The position numbers were made by a program, and so were the translations under genes. A stretch of 9,193 nt of DNA from Candidatus Mcinerneyibacteriota bacterium. Its GTDB lineage: Bacteria > AUK180 > JAQVHJ01. Of the stretch, positions 2,721-8,972 are shown in pieces. The stretch covers positions 1-9,193 of the forward strand of contig DAOVMD010000092.1 of assembly GCA_030630935.1 (NCBI GenBank), in the 5' to 3' direction. Each line of letters opens with the position of its first letter. Position 1 is the stretch's first letter. Under the pieces are notes generated by a model. It did no database searches. It saw only the letters and a program-made list of their open reading frames with translations, and was not told the DNA's origin.

Positions 2721-2733
2721 ACAGCGTAGCTGT
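2721..2733 (-). promoter_or_regulatory. Short hairpin at cyclase stop codon
   Basis: ACAGC-GTA-GCTGT is a 5-pair hairpin with a 3-base loop. It overlaps the first base of the cyclase TAA stop (plus-strand TTA, 2733-2735) and lies about 14 bases upstream of the next gene's ribosome-binding site. It could tune translation or RNA decay between the two cistrons, or simply be another of the mini-palindromes in this genome. Confidence 0.35.
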
Positions 2734-5700
2734 TATATCCGTTTCAAAAGTTCTTCCGCATTTTTGAGCCAACTAGCTTTATGTTTTCTACCTACTTTAA
2801 TTGACTGTGTCAAATATTTCAATGCTTCTTTTTTCTTATTAAGTGTATTTAATGCCTGAGCCATTCCAAATTGTGTTCTTGCGGTTTCGACATGTTCTTT
2901 GCCTAATATTTTTAAACGAATTTTAAGAGCTTTTTCAAAGAACTCCAATGCCTTATCGGGTTTACCGATTTTCAAATAAGCAGAACCAAAACCCTGATAA
3001 GAATATGAAATATAATGATGTTCAGAACCAAGCGCCTTAAGATTTATTTCATAAGCTTTTTGATAATTCTTCAATGCATTATTATAAGATTCTATATAGA
3101 GATAGGTATCCCCGATATTTATGTAATCTACTCCTACATAAGGATGTTCTGAACCAAATACCTTCAAATTTATTTTTAACGATTTCTGAAAATATTTTAA
3201 TGCTTTATCATACTCCCGTTTAAAAGAATGAACTTCTCCCAGGTTGCTGTAACTAAATGCTAAGTCAGGGTGATCTTTATTAAAAACCTTCAATTTAATA
3301 TCTAATGACTTTCGATGAAACATTAATGCTTGATCATAATCTCCTTTTTCTGAATATATGATTCCTATATTGTTATAATTTGCTGCAACTTCAGGATGCT
3401 CCGGACCAAATACTTTCAATTTGATATTTAATGCTTTATTTTGAAAGGTTAATGCCTTATCATAATCACCTTTGTCATCATATACAATCCCTATGTTCAT
3501 ATAGGTTTTTCCAATAAAGGGATGGCTTGAACCAAATACTTTTAAATCTATTTCCAATGCTTTTTGAAAGTACTTTAGGGCATTTTTAAAATATCCTTTA
3601 TCATAATATACATTACCAAGACCAAGGTAACTGTTTGATACTTCGCAATGTTCCGGACCAAAAAACTTTATTCGATTCTTTATCGCTTTTTGAAAATATT
3701 CAAGTGCCTGGTTATAATCTCCTATTTCGCGATATAAAGCACCAATTGCATGATAAGAACGCCCAATTAATTTCTTATCGATTATTTTTATCGAATTTAA
3801 AAGTGCTTCTACTTTTTTCTTTATACTTTTAGCTTTCTTATACTCTCCTTTCGATTCTAATAATAAACTCTTCTGTAAAAGGAATCTTAATAGAAGTTCA
3901 CCCTTGAGAAGGTTCTTTGCTTTCGTTTCCAATTCAGTGACTATCTTAAATCCCTCATCATATTTTGCAAGTGTATTTTTTATATTAATAAGTTGAATAT
4001 AATTATTTATTCCGATTTCGGAATCAAAAATCATATCTCCCGCAATCTCCACCCATTCCTCGTATAATAATTCTGCTTTTGAATAATTACCGGAATCATC
4101 TGCTTTTTCCGCAAATATCTGGAGATATTTTAAAACCTTCTCTTTTTCCTTCCCTAACCTGAAATGATAAATTAAAATTTCGAGATAGTTATCAAGGTTA
4201 TTTAAGGATAACTTTTCTACTATTTCACCAATATGTTTATGGTACCAGGTTCGCTCGGTTTTCAATATGGATTCATAGACCGAGTCCTTTATAATTATAT
4301 GCTTGAACATATAATCATCCTCAGCTTCGGAAACAACATTAATAATATTCTCTGTTATTTTTCTGATTAGATCTTTCTTCTCTATCATTTTTAGTCCAGT
4401 CCGTAATTTTGCACCATACTCTATCAGGTTCTCAATTATATTAATTGTAAATTCTGAACCAATTACGGATGCTATCTCAAGAATGTGTTTCAGGTCTAAA
4501 TCTAATTTATCTACTTTTGATAATATCAGCTCATTTAATTTCAAAGGTATAGTATCAATATCTCCGCCTTTTAACTTAGCCAGGTTCTTTTCAATCAAGA
4601 TCATATCACCGTTTAGTAAAAGACTTGAAAGTTCCTCAATATAAAATGGGTTTCCCTCACTTCGTTCAAGAACCAGTTTTTTTAGAGATAAATCAATCTT
4701 ATCCGATTTCAAAATATATTTTATTAGGTCAAGTCCATCCTCTTCTGTTAAACATGATAAATTTAGTTGATGATAATTTTTTAGTTTCAAAAATTCTTCA
4801 AATTCAAATCCGGGTCTGAATAAAAGAAGAATAAGGATTTTGGTTTGTTCAATCTGCTGAGCTAATTTCCGACAGAATTCCAATGTTGCATTATCCGACC
4901 AATGAAGATCCTCAAATACTAAAACAAGCGGATAAGTCATTGATATCCTCTTGAATAATAGAATCAGTAATCGGTTTAAAATATAATACCTGTCTTCTGC
5001 TTTCATCTTTTCTACGCGTAGTTTCTCTTTTTCACTCAGCTCAGCTGAGAAAATAAATTTTATAAGTGGTGAAATGCTGATTATGGATTTATCCTTTAAT
5101 GATTTAATATAGGTATCAATCTTTTTTGTTACTTCTTCCTTTGAGTCGGTCTCAGAAAAACCTATTAATTTACGTAAAATCTGTTTTACTGTCCAGTAAT
5201 CAGAATCCTTAAGATAATCTATACCCCTTCCTTCTAGAATTTTGATATCTTTTTTCTTTCCTTTAGATTTCTTTCTTAAGATTTCTGATTTGAATTCATA
5301 AATTAATTTTGATTTTCCTATCCCGGCTTCTCCTACTATTGATACTACCTGACCTTTTCCTGAATTGACATTGTTAAAAATTCTAATTAACTTTTTTAAT
5401 TCTTCTTCCCGACCGAAAAGAGGGATCTCTGTAATCCTTCGTGTTAAATATCTCGATTTAACTGATACAGGTCTATACGGAGTTACCGGCTTTTTCTTTC
5501 CTTTAACCTTAATTGGCTTTAATACTTTATACTTTATCTCTGCTCGTGTCTCATTATAAATCTTTTCACTTACAAAAATCTCACCTCGACCTGCAGCGGA
5601 TTCAAGGCGTTGGGCAAGATTGACAGTATCTCCCATTACGGTATAATCCATCTTCTGATCCGAACCAACTCCACCAGCCATAACTTTACCATAATTAATT

Positions 5701-6155
5701 CCGATGGATAATTCAAGGTCTTCAAATTCAGTCATGACCTTCATCAAATCAATTGCGCATAATACTGCTCTCAGGGGATCATCCTCATGTGTTACAGGTG
5801 CTCCGAATAATATCATTACACAATCACCAATAAACTTATCAATATAACCTTCATAATTATAGATAACATCTGATAAACCCTGAAATATCATATTCATCCT
5901 TTCTGTTACTTCCTCAGGATCAAGCTCCTCGCTCATTGCTGTGAAACCGGAGACATCTGCAAAGATAACGGCAACATTCCGACGTGAACCCTTAAGCTGC
6001 TTGGCGCCGGATTGAACCTTCTTAGTGAGCTCATCAGGCATTGATGGAACATTACGAGGAACTTCTTCAGTTGTTCCATCTGAGAGCTTAATTCCGCAGC
6101 CGCTGCAGAACCTGGCATTCTCTAAATTCTCAAATCCGCATTTTTTACATTTCAT
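2733..6155 (-). CDS. Zinc-ribbon class III adenylate cyclase-ATPase-TPR protein
   Basis: Predicted soluble 1140-residue cyclase making cAMP from ATP. Residues 1-21 form a zinc ribbon (Cys3, Cys6, Cys17, Cys20). The catalytic domain spans roughly 57-235: metal-binding Asp67 in FADVSGFT and Asp111 in KFIGD, purine-recognising Lys107 and Thr172, then Asn179 and Arg183 in the VNLAQRLE motif. The Asp67-Asp111 spacing of 44 matches canonical class III enzymes, and the Lys/Thr pair marks class IIIb, whose studied members respond to bicarbonate. An AAA/STAND-type ATPase follows, with Walker A GEAGIGKS (275-282), Walker B ending FEDLHW (414-419) and an EGNPFYIEEL motif near 500. From about 680 come helical repeats, ending in seven 42-residue kinesin-light-chain-like TPR units. 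It is the middle gene of a probable operon, 44 bp behind a membrane protein. Its ribosome-binding site is weak (GGAA about 14 bases upstream), so translation may depend on the upstream gene. Cyclase activity is very likely; the signal sensed is unknown. Confidence 0.93.
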   Translation of the reverse strand: MKCKKCGFENLENARFCSGCGIKLSDGTTEEVPRNVPSMPDELTKKVQSGAKQLKGSRRNVAVIFADVSGFTAMSEELDPEEVTERMNMIFQGLSDVIYNYEGYIDKFIGDCVMILFGAPVTHEDDPLRAVLCAIDLMKVMTEFEDLELSIGINYGKVMAGGVGSDQKMDYTVMGDTVNLAQRLESAAGRGEIFVSEKIYNETRAEIKYKVLKPIKVKGKKKPVTPYRPVSVKSRYLTRRITEIPLFGREEELKKLIRIFNNVNSGKGQVVSIVGEAGIGKSKLIYEFKSEILRKKSKGKKKDIKILEGRGIDYLKDSDYWTVKQILRKLIGFSETDSKEEVTKKIDTYIKSLKDKSIISISPLIKFIFSAELSEKEKLRVEKMKAEDRYYILNRLLILLFKRISMTYPLVLVFEDLHWSDNATLEFCRKLAQQIEQTKILILLLFRPGFEFEEFLKLKNYHQLNLSCLTEEDGLDLIKYILKSDKIDLSLKKLVLERSEGNPFYIEELSSLLLNGDMILIEKNLAKLKGGDIDTIPLKLNELILSKVDKLDLDLKHILEIASVIGSEFTINIIENLIEYGAKLRTGLKMIEKKDLIRKITENIINVVSEAEDDYMFKHIIIKDSVYESILKTERTWYHKHIGEIVEKLSLNNLDNYLEILIYHFRLGKEKEKVLKYLQIFAEKADDSGNYSKAELLYEEWVEIAGDMIFDSEIGINNYIQLINIKNTLAKYDEGFKIVTELETKAKNLLKGELLLRFLLQKSLLLESKGEYKKAKSIKKKVEALLNSIKIIDKKLIGRSYHAIGALYREIGDYNQALEYFQKAIKNRIKFFGPEHCEVSNSYLGLGNVYYDKGYFKNALKYFQKALEIDLKVFGSSHPFIGKTYMNIGIVYDDKGDYDKALTFQNKALNIKLKVFGPEHPEVAANYNNIGIIYSEKGDYDQALMFHRKSLDIKLKVFNKDHPDLAFSYSNLGEVHSFKREYDKALKYFQKSLKINLKVFGSEHPYVGVDYINIGDTYLYIESYNNALKNYQKAYEINLKALGSEHHYISYSYQGFGSAYLKIGKPDKALEFFEKALKIRLKILGKEHVETARTQFGMAQALNTLNKKKEALKYLTQSIKVGRKHKASWLKNAEELLKRI
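2796..3776 (-). repeat. 126-bp tandem coding repeats (TPR units)
   Basis: The C-terminal part of the cyclase gene is an internal tandem repeat with an exact 42-codon period. The turn residue after the F/L-phenylalanine or leucine falls at residues 833, 875, 917, 959, 1001, 1043 and 1085 (G, except N at 959). At the DNA level the plus-strand word CCAAATACT recurs at 3532 and 3406, exactly 126 bp apart, with related words in the other units. Each unit carries the pattern FG.EHP ... Y.N.G..Y...G.Y..AL, typical of TPR_12/kinesin-light-chain TPRs, which usually form protein-binding superhelices. Confidence 0.85.
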
Positions 6156-7301: not shown

Positions 7302-7321
7302 CCTAGGGTTAAAACCCCAGG
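7302..7321. repeat. TAAA-loop hairpin at edge of repeat mosaic
   Basis: CCT-A-GGGT-TAAA-ACCC-C-AGG forms a 7-pair hairpin with one A/C mismatch. It marks the left edge of the repeat mosaic that fills 7300-8240, just upstream of the operon promoter. It shares its T-R-A-A loop with five other hairpins in the window. Confidence 0.6.
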
Positions 7322-7341
7322 CTACGAATCATTTTTATAGA

Positions 7342-7513
7342 AATCGTAAACGATTAAAAAAAAGAGTAATTTTATTTTTCAGTTCGGGTTCGGGTTTGTG
7401 TTTGAGGCATTATTCGTAAGACACCCCACGTCAGGGGAGCAAACTCGAACTGATTACTCAAACTGAAGTTTTCGAGAGAAAACTTTTGGGGGACGGTGCT
7501 CCCATTTTGTCCC
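7342..7513 (+). repeat. Structured intergenic element, copy A
   Basis: Successive parts are AATCG-TAAA-CGATT (7342-7355), TTATTTTTCAGT (7372-7383), four hexamers GTNNGN (7382-7405), and a CCCC/GGGG hairpin (7424-7427 with 7434-7437). Complementary words CAAAC, TCGAAC, TGATTAC and TCAAAC follow (7440-7463), then an 8-pair hairpin AAGTTTTC-GAGA-GAAAACTT (7466-7485) and GGTGCTCCC (7495-7503). CAGTTCGGGTT (7380-7390) pairs with AACTCGAACTG (7442-7452). GGGAGCA (7435-7441) can pair with TGCTCCC (7497-7503). Positions 7461-7513 match copy B at 49 of 53 bases with an exact 500-bp offset. Plus orientation is chosen because only that strand gives a GNRA loop. I know no named RNA family that fits. It may be a mobile palindromic element or a non-coding RNA. 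Confidence 0.7.
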
Positions 7514-7591
7514 GTTATTATGTTTACTTCAGATGCTTAAGTTACATTTACTCAGAATGCATCTATTTTACGGAGGTAAACATAATGGGAC
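7509..7591. repeat. 83-bp nested inverted repeat
   Basis: GTCCC (7509-7513) and, after a 3-base bulge, ATTATGTTTAC (7517-7527) pair with GTAAACATAAT (7576-7586) and GGGAC (7587-7591). Inside, AGATGC (7531-7536) pairs with GCATCT (7559-7564). The right arm's GGGAC can instead form a local hairpin GGGAC-TGAA-GTCCC (7587-7600). The left arm begins within the 3' end of element copy A. Confidence 0.65.
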
Positions 7592-7622
7592 TGAAGTCCC
7601 AGAGTGTTTTCTCAATCTTTAT

Positions 7623-7675
7623 CCCCGGATGAGATTGCCGCGTCGCTTCGCTTCTCGCAATTACATTATCCGGGG
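7623..7675. repeat. 53-bp REP-like palindrome
   Basis: CCCCGGAT (7623-7630) pairs perfectly with ATCCGGGG (7668-7675), and inside it ATTGC (7634-7638) pairs with GCAAT (7657-7661). The centre carries CGCTTCGCT, the reverse complement of the AGCGAAGCG word found at 8221 and 8978. This resembles the REP-type palindromes, with an ATTGC...GCAAT core around GCTTCGC, that are scattered through many bacterial genomes. Confidence 0.7.
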
Positions 7676-7686
7676 CTCTTCGCATT

Positions 7687-7705
7687 AGAGCTGAAGCTCT
7701 TTCTA
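7687..7705. repeat. TGAA-loop hairpin, second copy of 1694-1712
   Basis: AGAGC-TGAA-GCTCT followed by TTTCTA matches 1694-1712 at 18 of 19 bases, the single difference lying in the loop. On the plus strand it reads like a short hairpin followed by a T-rich tail, but a 5-pair stem is weak for a terminator. Confidence 0.65.
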
Positions 7706-7732
7706 CTTAAAAAGGCGAGGGTTAAGTTCAAT

Positions 7733-7796
7733 TGCTCAGGGTCAAGGCTCTTGACCCTATTTTGTTTAGCAAACAATTCCTTTGCTTTCAAATGAA
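7733..7796. repeat. Composite repeat: TGCTCAGGG hairpin plus TTGTTT hairpin
   Basis: GGGTCAAG-GCT-CTTGACCC (7739-7757) is a perfect 8-pair stem with a 3-base loop. It shares the lead TGCTCAGGGT with the hairpin at 8121. It is followed by TTGTTT-AGC-AAACAA (7762-7776) and the tail to 7796, the second copy of the 39-bp repeat at 152-190. Confidence 0.7.
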
Positions 7797-7804
7797 TATA
7801 TAAG

Positions 7805-8013
7805 AATCGTAAACGATTTTAAAAAGAAAAGATTTTATCTTATTTTTCAGTAAGAGTAAGAGTTCGAGTAAGAGGCGTTTGCAAAGGACTCCCCGTACAG
7901 GGGAGCACCCATGAACCACTATTTCGGGTTCAGGGCTAAAGAACTCTTACTTCTTACACGAACTGAAGTTTCCGAGAGGAAACTTTGGGGGGACGGTGCT
8001 CCCATTTTGTTCC
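7805..8013 (+). repeat. Structured intergenic element, copy B
   Basis: It has the same order of parts as copy A: AATCG-TAAA-CGATT (7805-7818), TTATTTTTCAGT (7840-7851), four GTNNGN hexamers (7850-7873), and hairpin CTCCCC-GTACA-GGGGAG (7889-7905). An extra hairpin TGAACC/GGTTCA follows (7912-7917 with 7927-7932). Then come complementary words ending in AAC or TAC (7941-7962), AAGTTTCC-GAGA-GGAAACTT (7966-7985) and GGTGCTCCC (7995-8003). GTAAGA plus GTAAGAGTTC (7850-7865) pair with GAACTCTTAC (7941-7950) plus TCTTAC (7952-7957): 16 pairs with one bulged T. GGGAGCACC (7901-7909) is perfectly complementary to GGTGCTCCC, which would make a pseudoknot with that stem or an alternative fold to the local hairpin. 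The repeat is certain; its function is unknown. Confidence 0.72.
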
Positions 8014-8861: not shown

Positions 8862-8893
8862 ACAGAGAACAGATAACAGAGAACCGATAGCAG
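8860..8893. repeat. Short 7-bp tandem array
   Basis: Units GAACAGA, GAACAGA, TAACAGA and GAACCGA, and a partial TAGCAG, follow each other without gaps directly after the preceding hairpin. Such short decaying arrays usually reflect replication slippage. Confidence 0.6.
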
Positions 8894-8972
8894 TCGTTTT
8901 ATAGATATAAGCATTATACTCAATAATGCAAAATCATTCTTCACTCTTCATTATTCATTCTTATTTCTTACT

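Follow-up and report, generated by a model that had tools for sequence, protein, structure and literature searches.

The window analysed here, one entire 9,193-base contig, carries two copies of a core sequence, 115–150 nt long across its copies, that is probably a non-autonomous, structured mobile DNA repeat folding in a strand-specific manner and, we infer, mobilised by an enzyme. Repeats of this kind are familiar; the unusual and testable feature of this one is the exact junction that it makes with the 3′ ends of tRNA genes. Among the possibilities raised in a preliminary description of the window, that of a transposase-mobilised palindromic repeat fits best.

Two copies with their parts in the same order (copies A and B) had been claimed, and a check of the sequence found both. 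The 53-base modules shared at their 3′ sides (7461–7513 and 7961–8013) have exactly four differences (7472/7972, 7479/7979, 7487/7987 and 7511/8011), and two of these make up the compensatory change described earlier, in which T7472–A7479 of copy A becomes C7972–G7979 in copy B. However, what had been treated as a single unit spans a palindromic flank, the core and a RAYT-type REP, each repeated separately (Table 1), so that the shared 53-base module is real but in part a separate REP that also occurs alone. The AATCGTAAACGATT palindrome, or a near variant of it, also flanks other repeats in the genome, and the ATTATGTTTACTTC/GAGGTAAACATAAT tail recurs with other copies of the REP; the right end of the RAYT element carries it as well. 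Elsewhere in the window (2733–6155, minus strand) lies a 1140-aa protein with, as judged by eye, a zinc ribbon, an adenylate-cyclase-like domain, an ATPase and TPR repeats.

Table 1. Modules at and beside copies A and B, given as window positions unless another locus is named.
Feature	Position	Strand	Basis or remark
Acido-Lenti-1-like hairpin CCTAGGG...CCCCAGGCTA, module beside copy A	7302..7329	+	RF01687, 21.9 bits (gathering score 37)
Acido-Lenti-1 example, locus L110	406..451	-	
Acido-Lenti-1 example, locus L122	3811..3857	-	
Palindrome AATCGTAAACGATT, flanking module left of copy A, outside the core	7342..7355	.	sequence
Core, copy A, hexamer arms of the GGTTCG/GTTTG kind	7370..7485	+	model R1, 104.1 bits, E 5.2e-16
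Copy A 5′ arm of the long imperfect hairpin, CAG(TTCGGG)(TTCGGG)(TTTGTG)TTTGAG	7380..7409	+	sequence, folding, arm-swap test
Copy A P3 apical hairpin, CCCC-ACGTCA-GGGG	7424..7437	+	folding, consensus fold
Copy A 3′ arm, ending in CTG	7441..7465	+	alignment, consensus fold
Copy A P5 hairpin, AAGTTTTC-GAGA-GAAAACTT	7466..7485	+	covariation, loops
Copy A REP GGGACGGTGCTCCCATTTTGTCCC, separate module	7490..7513	+	same REP just upstream of a RAYT gene, inverted variant downstream
Inverted repeat ATTATGTTTACTTC / GAGGTAAACATAAT, tail after many REP copies	7517..7586	.	
Palindrome AATCGTAAACGATT, left of copy B	7805..7818	.	sequence
Core, copy B, hexamer arms of the AGTAAG kind	7838..7985	+	model R1, 91.9 bits, E 1.0e-13
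Copy B 5′ arm, tandem hexamers CAGTAAGAGTAAGAGTTCGAGTAAGAGGCG	7848..7877	+	sequence, folding (z -5.5)
Copy B P3 apical hairpin, CTCCCC-GTACA-GGGGAG	7889..7905	+	folding, consensus fold
Copy B P4, optional inserted hairpin ACCCATGAACC...GGTTCAGGGCTAAAG	7907..7941	+	missing from copy A
Copy B 3′ arm, AACTCTTACTTCTTACACGAACTG	7942..7965	+	alignment
Copy B P5 hairpin, AAGTTTCC-GAGA-GGAAACTT	7966..7985	+	covariation, loops
Copy B REP GGGACGGTGCTCCCATTTTGTTCC, separate module	7990..8013	+	

The source genome (G000; a 3.16-Mb assembly of 471 contigs, 80% complete) holds far more than two copies. A DNA search with the 3′ half of copy B hit 45 places in it, and a covariance model of the core (R1, built from 17 copies; match threshold E ≤ 0.1) gave 53 matches; the genome has about 55 copies in all. 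The same model search, which the preliminary description had suggested extending to relatives, gave 17 matches in the sole genome of the same family that was searched (G001; another genus, 72% complete). Both assemblies are incomplete, and contigs rich in repeats end at copies. The model had no matches in the 58 other genomes searched. No match was seen among the viral contigs searched either, and a phage origin was rejected on this ground. Two isolated matches in unrelated species, from a pattern scan of the genome collection, are regarded as chance. Given the 53 core matches in the genome and the covariation of the terminal hairpin over 26 distinct sequences (below), the resemblance between copies A and B is far beyond chance.

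All cores are laid out alike, with a T-rich leader first, followed by the hexamer-built 5′ arm, an apical hairpin (P3), an optional hairpin (P4), a 3′ arm and a terminal hairpin of 20 nt (P5). The arms form a long imperfect hairpin closed by CAG...CTG, and P3 is GC-rich. The 5′ arm consists of tandem hexamers whose copy number varies in 6-nt steps, and the arms fall into three families (AGTAAG, GTTCG/GTTTG and AGATCT/AGATTG hexamers) plus a form found in G001. In both genera, copies that are otherwise alike may have P4 or lack it.

The substitutions in P5 respect its pairing, as the comparison across 26 distinct sequences revealed. In this alignment, in which the triloop rows carry a hand-placed N in the loop, 98.6% of cells are paired (78% in shuffles), both sides have changed in six of the eight pairs, and the cells with changes on both sides number 46, compared with 16.5 in shuffles. 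On three of five measures (cells paired, cells changed on both sides and the covariation score) none of 500 shuffles reached the observed value, and controls with slid partners collapsed, giving nothing comparable to the real pairing. The covariation of P5 is thus strong and its compensatory changes go beyond chance. The loops have a polarity too: among the 67 counted, a few of which are misparsed damaged copies, 65 end in A on the plus strand, and the G...A form occurs in 42 on that strand and in one on the other. The folded plus strand proposed in the preliminary description is borne out by these two lines of evidence, but its GNRA tetraloop is not the rule, as three- and four-base loops interchange and include GGA, GAA, AGA, TGA, GATA, AAAA and TTTA. 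GNRA loops are typical of RNA, but DNA also forms stable G-N-A and G-N-N-A loops, and G-N-A triloops suit DNA as well as they suit RNA; the polarity thus fixes the strand and is compatible with either DNA or RNA as the molecule.

Covariation in the arms of the long hairpin is modest and weaker than that of P5. When arms were exchanged between types, the native combination proved the better pairing in 34 of 45 copies, a set in which the copies are related to each other and at least three from G001 are mislabelled. The effect was clear when the AGATCT and AGTAAG types were compared but did not show within the GTTTG type; type II arms paired no better with their own partners than with swapped ones. 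Because of the missing effect within the GTTTG type and the relatedness of the copies, we take this test as supporting evidence only.

As the preliminary description had anticipated, the core could be assigned to no known family: there was no Rfam match at the gathering score, which also leaves out the known riboswitches and sRNAs. A hammerhead ribozyme was rejected because there was no match to its core. The hexamer arms of copy A permit an HDV-like or other ribozyme pseudoknot because the hexamer repeats itself; this potential is not kept in other copies. By inspection, the arms contain no GTTRRRY/RYYYAAC and the copies are dispersed, which argues against integron attC sites; a retron or group II intron was rejected because neither genome yielded a reverse transcriptase.

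The copies lie between genes, with 66 of the 68 located in the two genomes being intergenic (neighbourhoods rest on longest-ORF calls). Over these 68 copies there was no consistent strand relation to, or distance from, the neighbouring genes, and none of the gene families compared beside cores was recurrent. Divergent neighbours outnumber convergent ones 10 to 3, with no useful strand bias, which speaks against a 3′-UTR or terminator element. These observations bear on the idea, also put forward in the preliminary description, that the element is a functional non-coding RNA. Such a structured RNA, a trans-acting sRNA or a cis-element read from the plus strand and present in many paralogous copies, would account for the covariation of P5, for GNRA-like loops confined to one strand and for an optional hairpin conserved across two genera. 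Nevertheless it is unlikely: orientation to and distance from genes are inconsistent, the loops are not strictly GNRA, the core is without an Rfam match and is carried by only two genera, and its copies decay, become truncated and are interrupted. An RNA role for the core is, in itself, possible.

Copies are also found inside one another. On one contig (C223) a core sits within the P3 apical loop of another core, and other modules interrupt P5 loops and both arms. Near-identical copies occur at many unlinked loci of G001, and the neighbourhoods of copies are mosaic. Small hairpin modules, several of them followed by CTAAAGA, were seen at varied positions in cores and in both orientations (L022, L013, L015, L017, L019 and L008); we read them as a separate layer of mobile mini-elements. 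Just to the left of many cores are tracts of seven-base repeats, (GAGAACA)n in G000 (window 8866–8897) and (GGTGAAC)n in G001, which are possibly another arm of a larger composite element. Very small dispersed repeats that nest are reportedly present in cyanobacteria (work cited in PMC3116915 and PMC4390886); the core resembles them in being small and nested, and differs in sequence and hosts.

The most specific feature of the cores is their position at tRNA genes, which were located by ARAGORN and an Rfam tRNA search. In eight copies P5 begins 0–1 nt past the encoded CCA, antisense to the tRNA. Five are in G000, behind Gln(ctg), Glu(ttc), Leu(gag), Glu(ctc) and Pro(ggg), the last with a decayed copy, and three in G001, behind Arg(ccg), Glu(ttc) and Gln(ctg). 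With random placement, 0.0007 such junctions would be expected, or 0.005 if only 15% of the genome is available; the pattern was noticed first and tested afterwards, but the excess is very large. Next to a ninth copy (C341:6008) lies an apparent tRNA-Glu remnant. At tRNA-Leu(gag) there are cores in G000, and the corresponding site in G001 is empty, with a normal terminator there; the three proteins encoded upstream are 58–72% identical across the genera, and the downstream gene is, by inspection, evidently orthologous. The Lys-Glu locus of a relative from the same class (G002) is likewise without a core. Cores stand behind Glu(ttc) and Gln(ctg) in each of the two genera, with arm types that differ between them, as expected from repeated independent insertion or strong turnover. 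A literature search for elements downstream of tRNA genes found no parallel.

Other repeats were seen at tRNA ends. At the orthologous tRNA-Pro(ggg) locus of G001 (L229 2820–2960, contig C401) a REP pair, and no core, lies a few bases past the CCA, so that tRNA ends may attract several kinds of repeat. Directly after a tRNA-Asn in the same genome (L209, contig C388) is a hairpin, ATTTTTGC-TTT-GCAAAAAT, then TGGCTC, by which the palindrome reaches into the GAGCCA at the end of the tRNA itself; a repeat arm of the AGAGAGC type comes next.

The exact 0–1-nt junction with the CCA at Gln, Glu, Leu, Arg and Pro genes, and the occurrence of cores after Glu(ttc) and Gln(ctg) in both genera, might be explained if the core were part of tRNA operons, serving 3′ processing or termination, with the dispersed copies as by-products. 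We find this quite improbable, because only 5 of 30 tRNA genes in G000 and 3 of 31 in G001 have a core at the 3′ end, the G001 tRNA-Leu has its normal terminator at the same place, and the cores at orthologous tRNA-Glu genes differ in arm type; moreover, the strand with the favourable loops is antisense to the tRNA, and in the tRNA sense no T-run follows the hairpin.

The second partner of the core is the Acido-Lenti-1 motif, listed by Weinberg et al. as probably RNA and not cis-regulatory (PMC2864571). Matches to RF01687 at E ≤ 0.05 number 71 in G000 and 53 in G001, part of them above the gathering score in both, and there are none in five other genomes of the class; in these two genomes Acido-Lenti-1 behaves as an interspersed repeat, and this distribution calls its status as an ordinary non-coding RNA family into question. 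Like the core, it is a hairpin element with multiple copies here (two hairpins in its case; RF01687; PMC2864571), but the two differ in sequence and fold and do not match each other. An Acido-Lenti-1 module adjoins 14 of the 17 cores of G001, directly after the core and on the opposite strand, with mostly 15 nt between the core and the end of the partial match. Two further cores abut tRNAs, so that P5 lies at a tRNA or Acido-Lenti-1 3′ end in 16 of 17 copies.

As both partners are RNA motifs, the junctions at their 3′ ends would be just as consistent with a step through RNA: the RNA of the element might be linked to structured-RNA 3′ ends (tRNA CCA, Acido-Lenti-1) when a reverse transcriptase switches templates end to end, and the product might then be inserted. 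The 16 of 17 G001 copies with P5 at the 3′ end of a tRNA or annotated RNA motif, and the several different tRNA partners, agree with such an RNA-mediated element, yet we hold it to be more doubtful still: no reverse transcriptase domain was found in either genome, both incomplete, the partner tRNAs are in intact operons rather than cDNA copies, and the loop polarity favours the opposite strand. Passive spread by recombination and palindrome slippage in a repeat-rich genome, with no dedicated mobility, is the least probable reading, for it would suit the variable number of hexamers in the arm and the mosaic neighbourhoods but not the exact tRNA and Acido-Lenti-1 junctions, the near-identical copies at unlinked loci or covariation in excess of shuffles.

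The third partner, with which P5 is joined as exactly as with tRNA 3′ ends and Acido-Lenti-1 modules, is the RAYT REP. The GGGACGGTGCTCCCATTTTGTCCC REP is found singly, in inverted pairs and flanking a RAYT gene on either side on contig C338 of G000. This gene (L032 1471–2343) encodes a 290-aa RAYT-type protein and has a GGGACGGTGCTCCC REP upstream (1362–1391) and the inverted variant downstream; we read the ensemble as a complete REPtron. Inverted REP pairs seen elsewhere (L024, L038) resemble REPINs of this RAYT. By contrast, no core was found at the RAYT loci of either genome, where a separate GGGACGG REP does flank one RAYT. Nor do transposase genes in the two genomes have cores at their ends; on contig C247 of G000 there is only a partial core, on one side of an IS200-like gene. 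The 3′ end of this Y1 gene (L036 740–1207, plus strand) runs into degenerate 25-base repeats, TACAAAGATATCGC..., and then into the 3′ half of a type III core.

The core was not classed as a RAYT REP, because it is absent from RAYT loci and has 115–150 nt with two or three hairpins rather than a single palindrome of 20–40 bp; published REPs measure 20–40 bp and are mainly downstream of genes (PMC3733652). It does share with REPs and REPINs, the GTAG-/CGTC-tagged palindromes that go with RAYT (TnpA_REP; PMC3733652, PMC3116915), the many intergenic copies, the strand-specific hairpin and the lack of a gene of its own in a genome that encodes RAYTs, and the REP joined to copies A and B is itself of the REP/RAYT kind and flanks a RAYT. 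However, the core is three to five times longer, has hexamer arms and abuts tRNA CCA ends, and it is not enriched downstream of genes as published REPs are (PMC3733652). On the complementary strand, the bases before P5 often read GTAGGGGYA or CGTCCCC, but these belong to variable flanks. Small, gene-less, structured and dispersed, with Y1-type transposases present in trans, the core also resembles MITEs and PATEs, the latter being non-autonomous IS200/IS605 elements with palindromic ends (PMC3119063); unlike for these, we found no recognisable left and right ends, cleavage motif, target tetranucleotide, parental IS or terminal inverted repeats.

Several of these findings count against a mobile DNA repeat: no enzyme gene with core ends was found, and neither a duplication nor a fixed target motif. 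Neither a target-site duplication nor a clean terminal motif could be established; on the left, nothing sharper than a T-rich tract bounds the core, no tetranucleotide is constant outside that tract or beyond the right-hand T of the core, and the two core ends (T-rich tract and P5) are not inverted repeats of each other. Y1_Tnp genes are encoded in both genomes. Because they are present in both, because such enzymes are known to act on one folded strand and because neither genome yielded a reverse transcriptase domain, Y1/HUH proteins are our leading candidates.

For a mobile DNA repeat of this type, the plus strand would fold as single-stranded DNA, for example during replication, and its hairpins would be recognised by an enzyme acting in trans, most plausibly a Y1/HUH protein of the RAYT or IS200 type. 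Insertion would then take place next to the 3′ foot of a stretch already forming hairpins, and a tRNA gene, whose stem is followed by an unpaired CCA, would be one such target. Selection at the level of spreading would keep the pairing as the sequence drifts, and copies A and B would be two old, diverged copies, each joined to a RAYT REP later or earlier. A further, tentative possibility is that the family inserts specifically behind tRNA CCA and other structured 3′ ends, recognising the folded target and not its sequence.

The core illustrates that a covarying motif may look like RNA and yet be a mobile DNA repeat, a point of relevance to Rfam families that, like Acido-Lenti-1, behave as interspersed repeats here. 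Insertion specifically behind folded 3′ ends would, if true, be a structure-targeted mode of insertion in bacteria. If the targeting of tRNA ends holds, these genomes would offer a clean system in which to ask whether folded single-stranded DNA, that of tRNA genes included, is a target of transposition.
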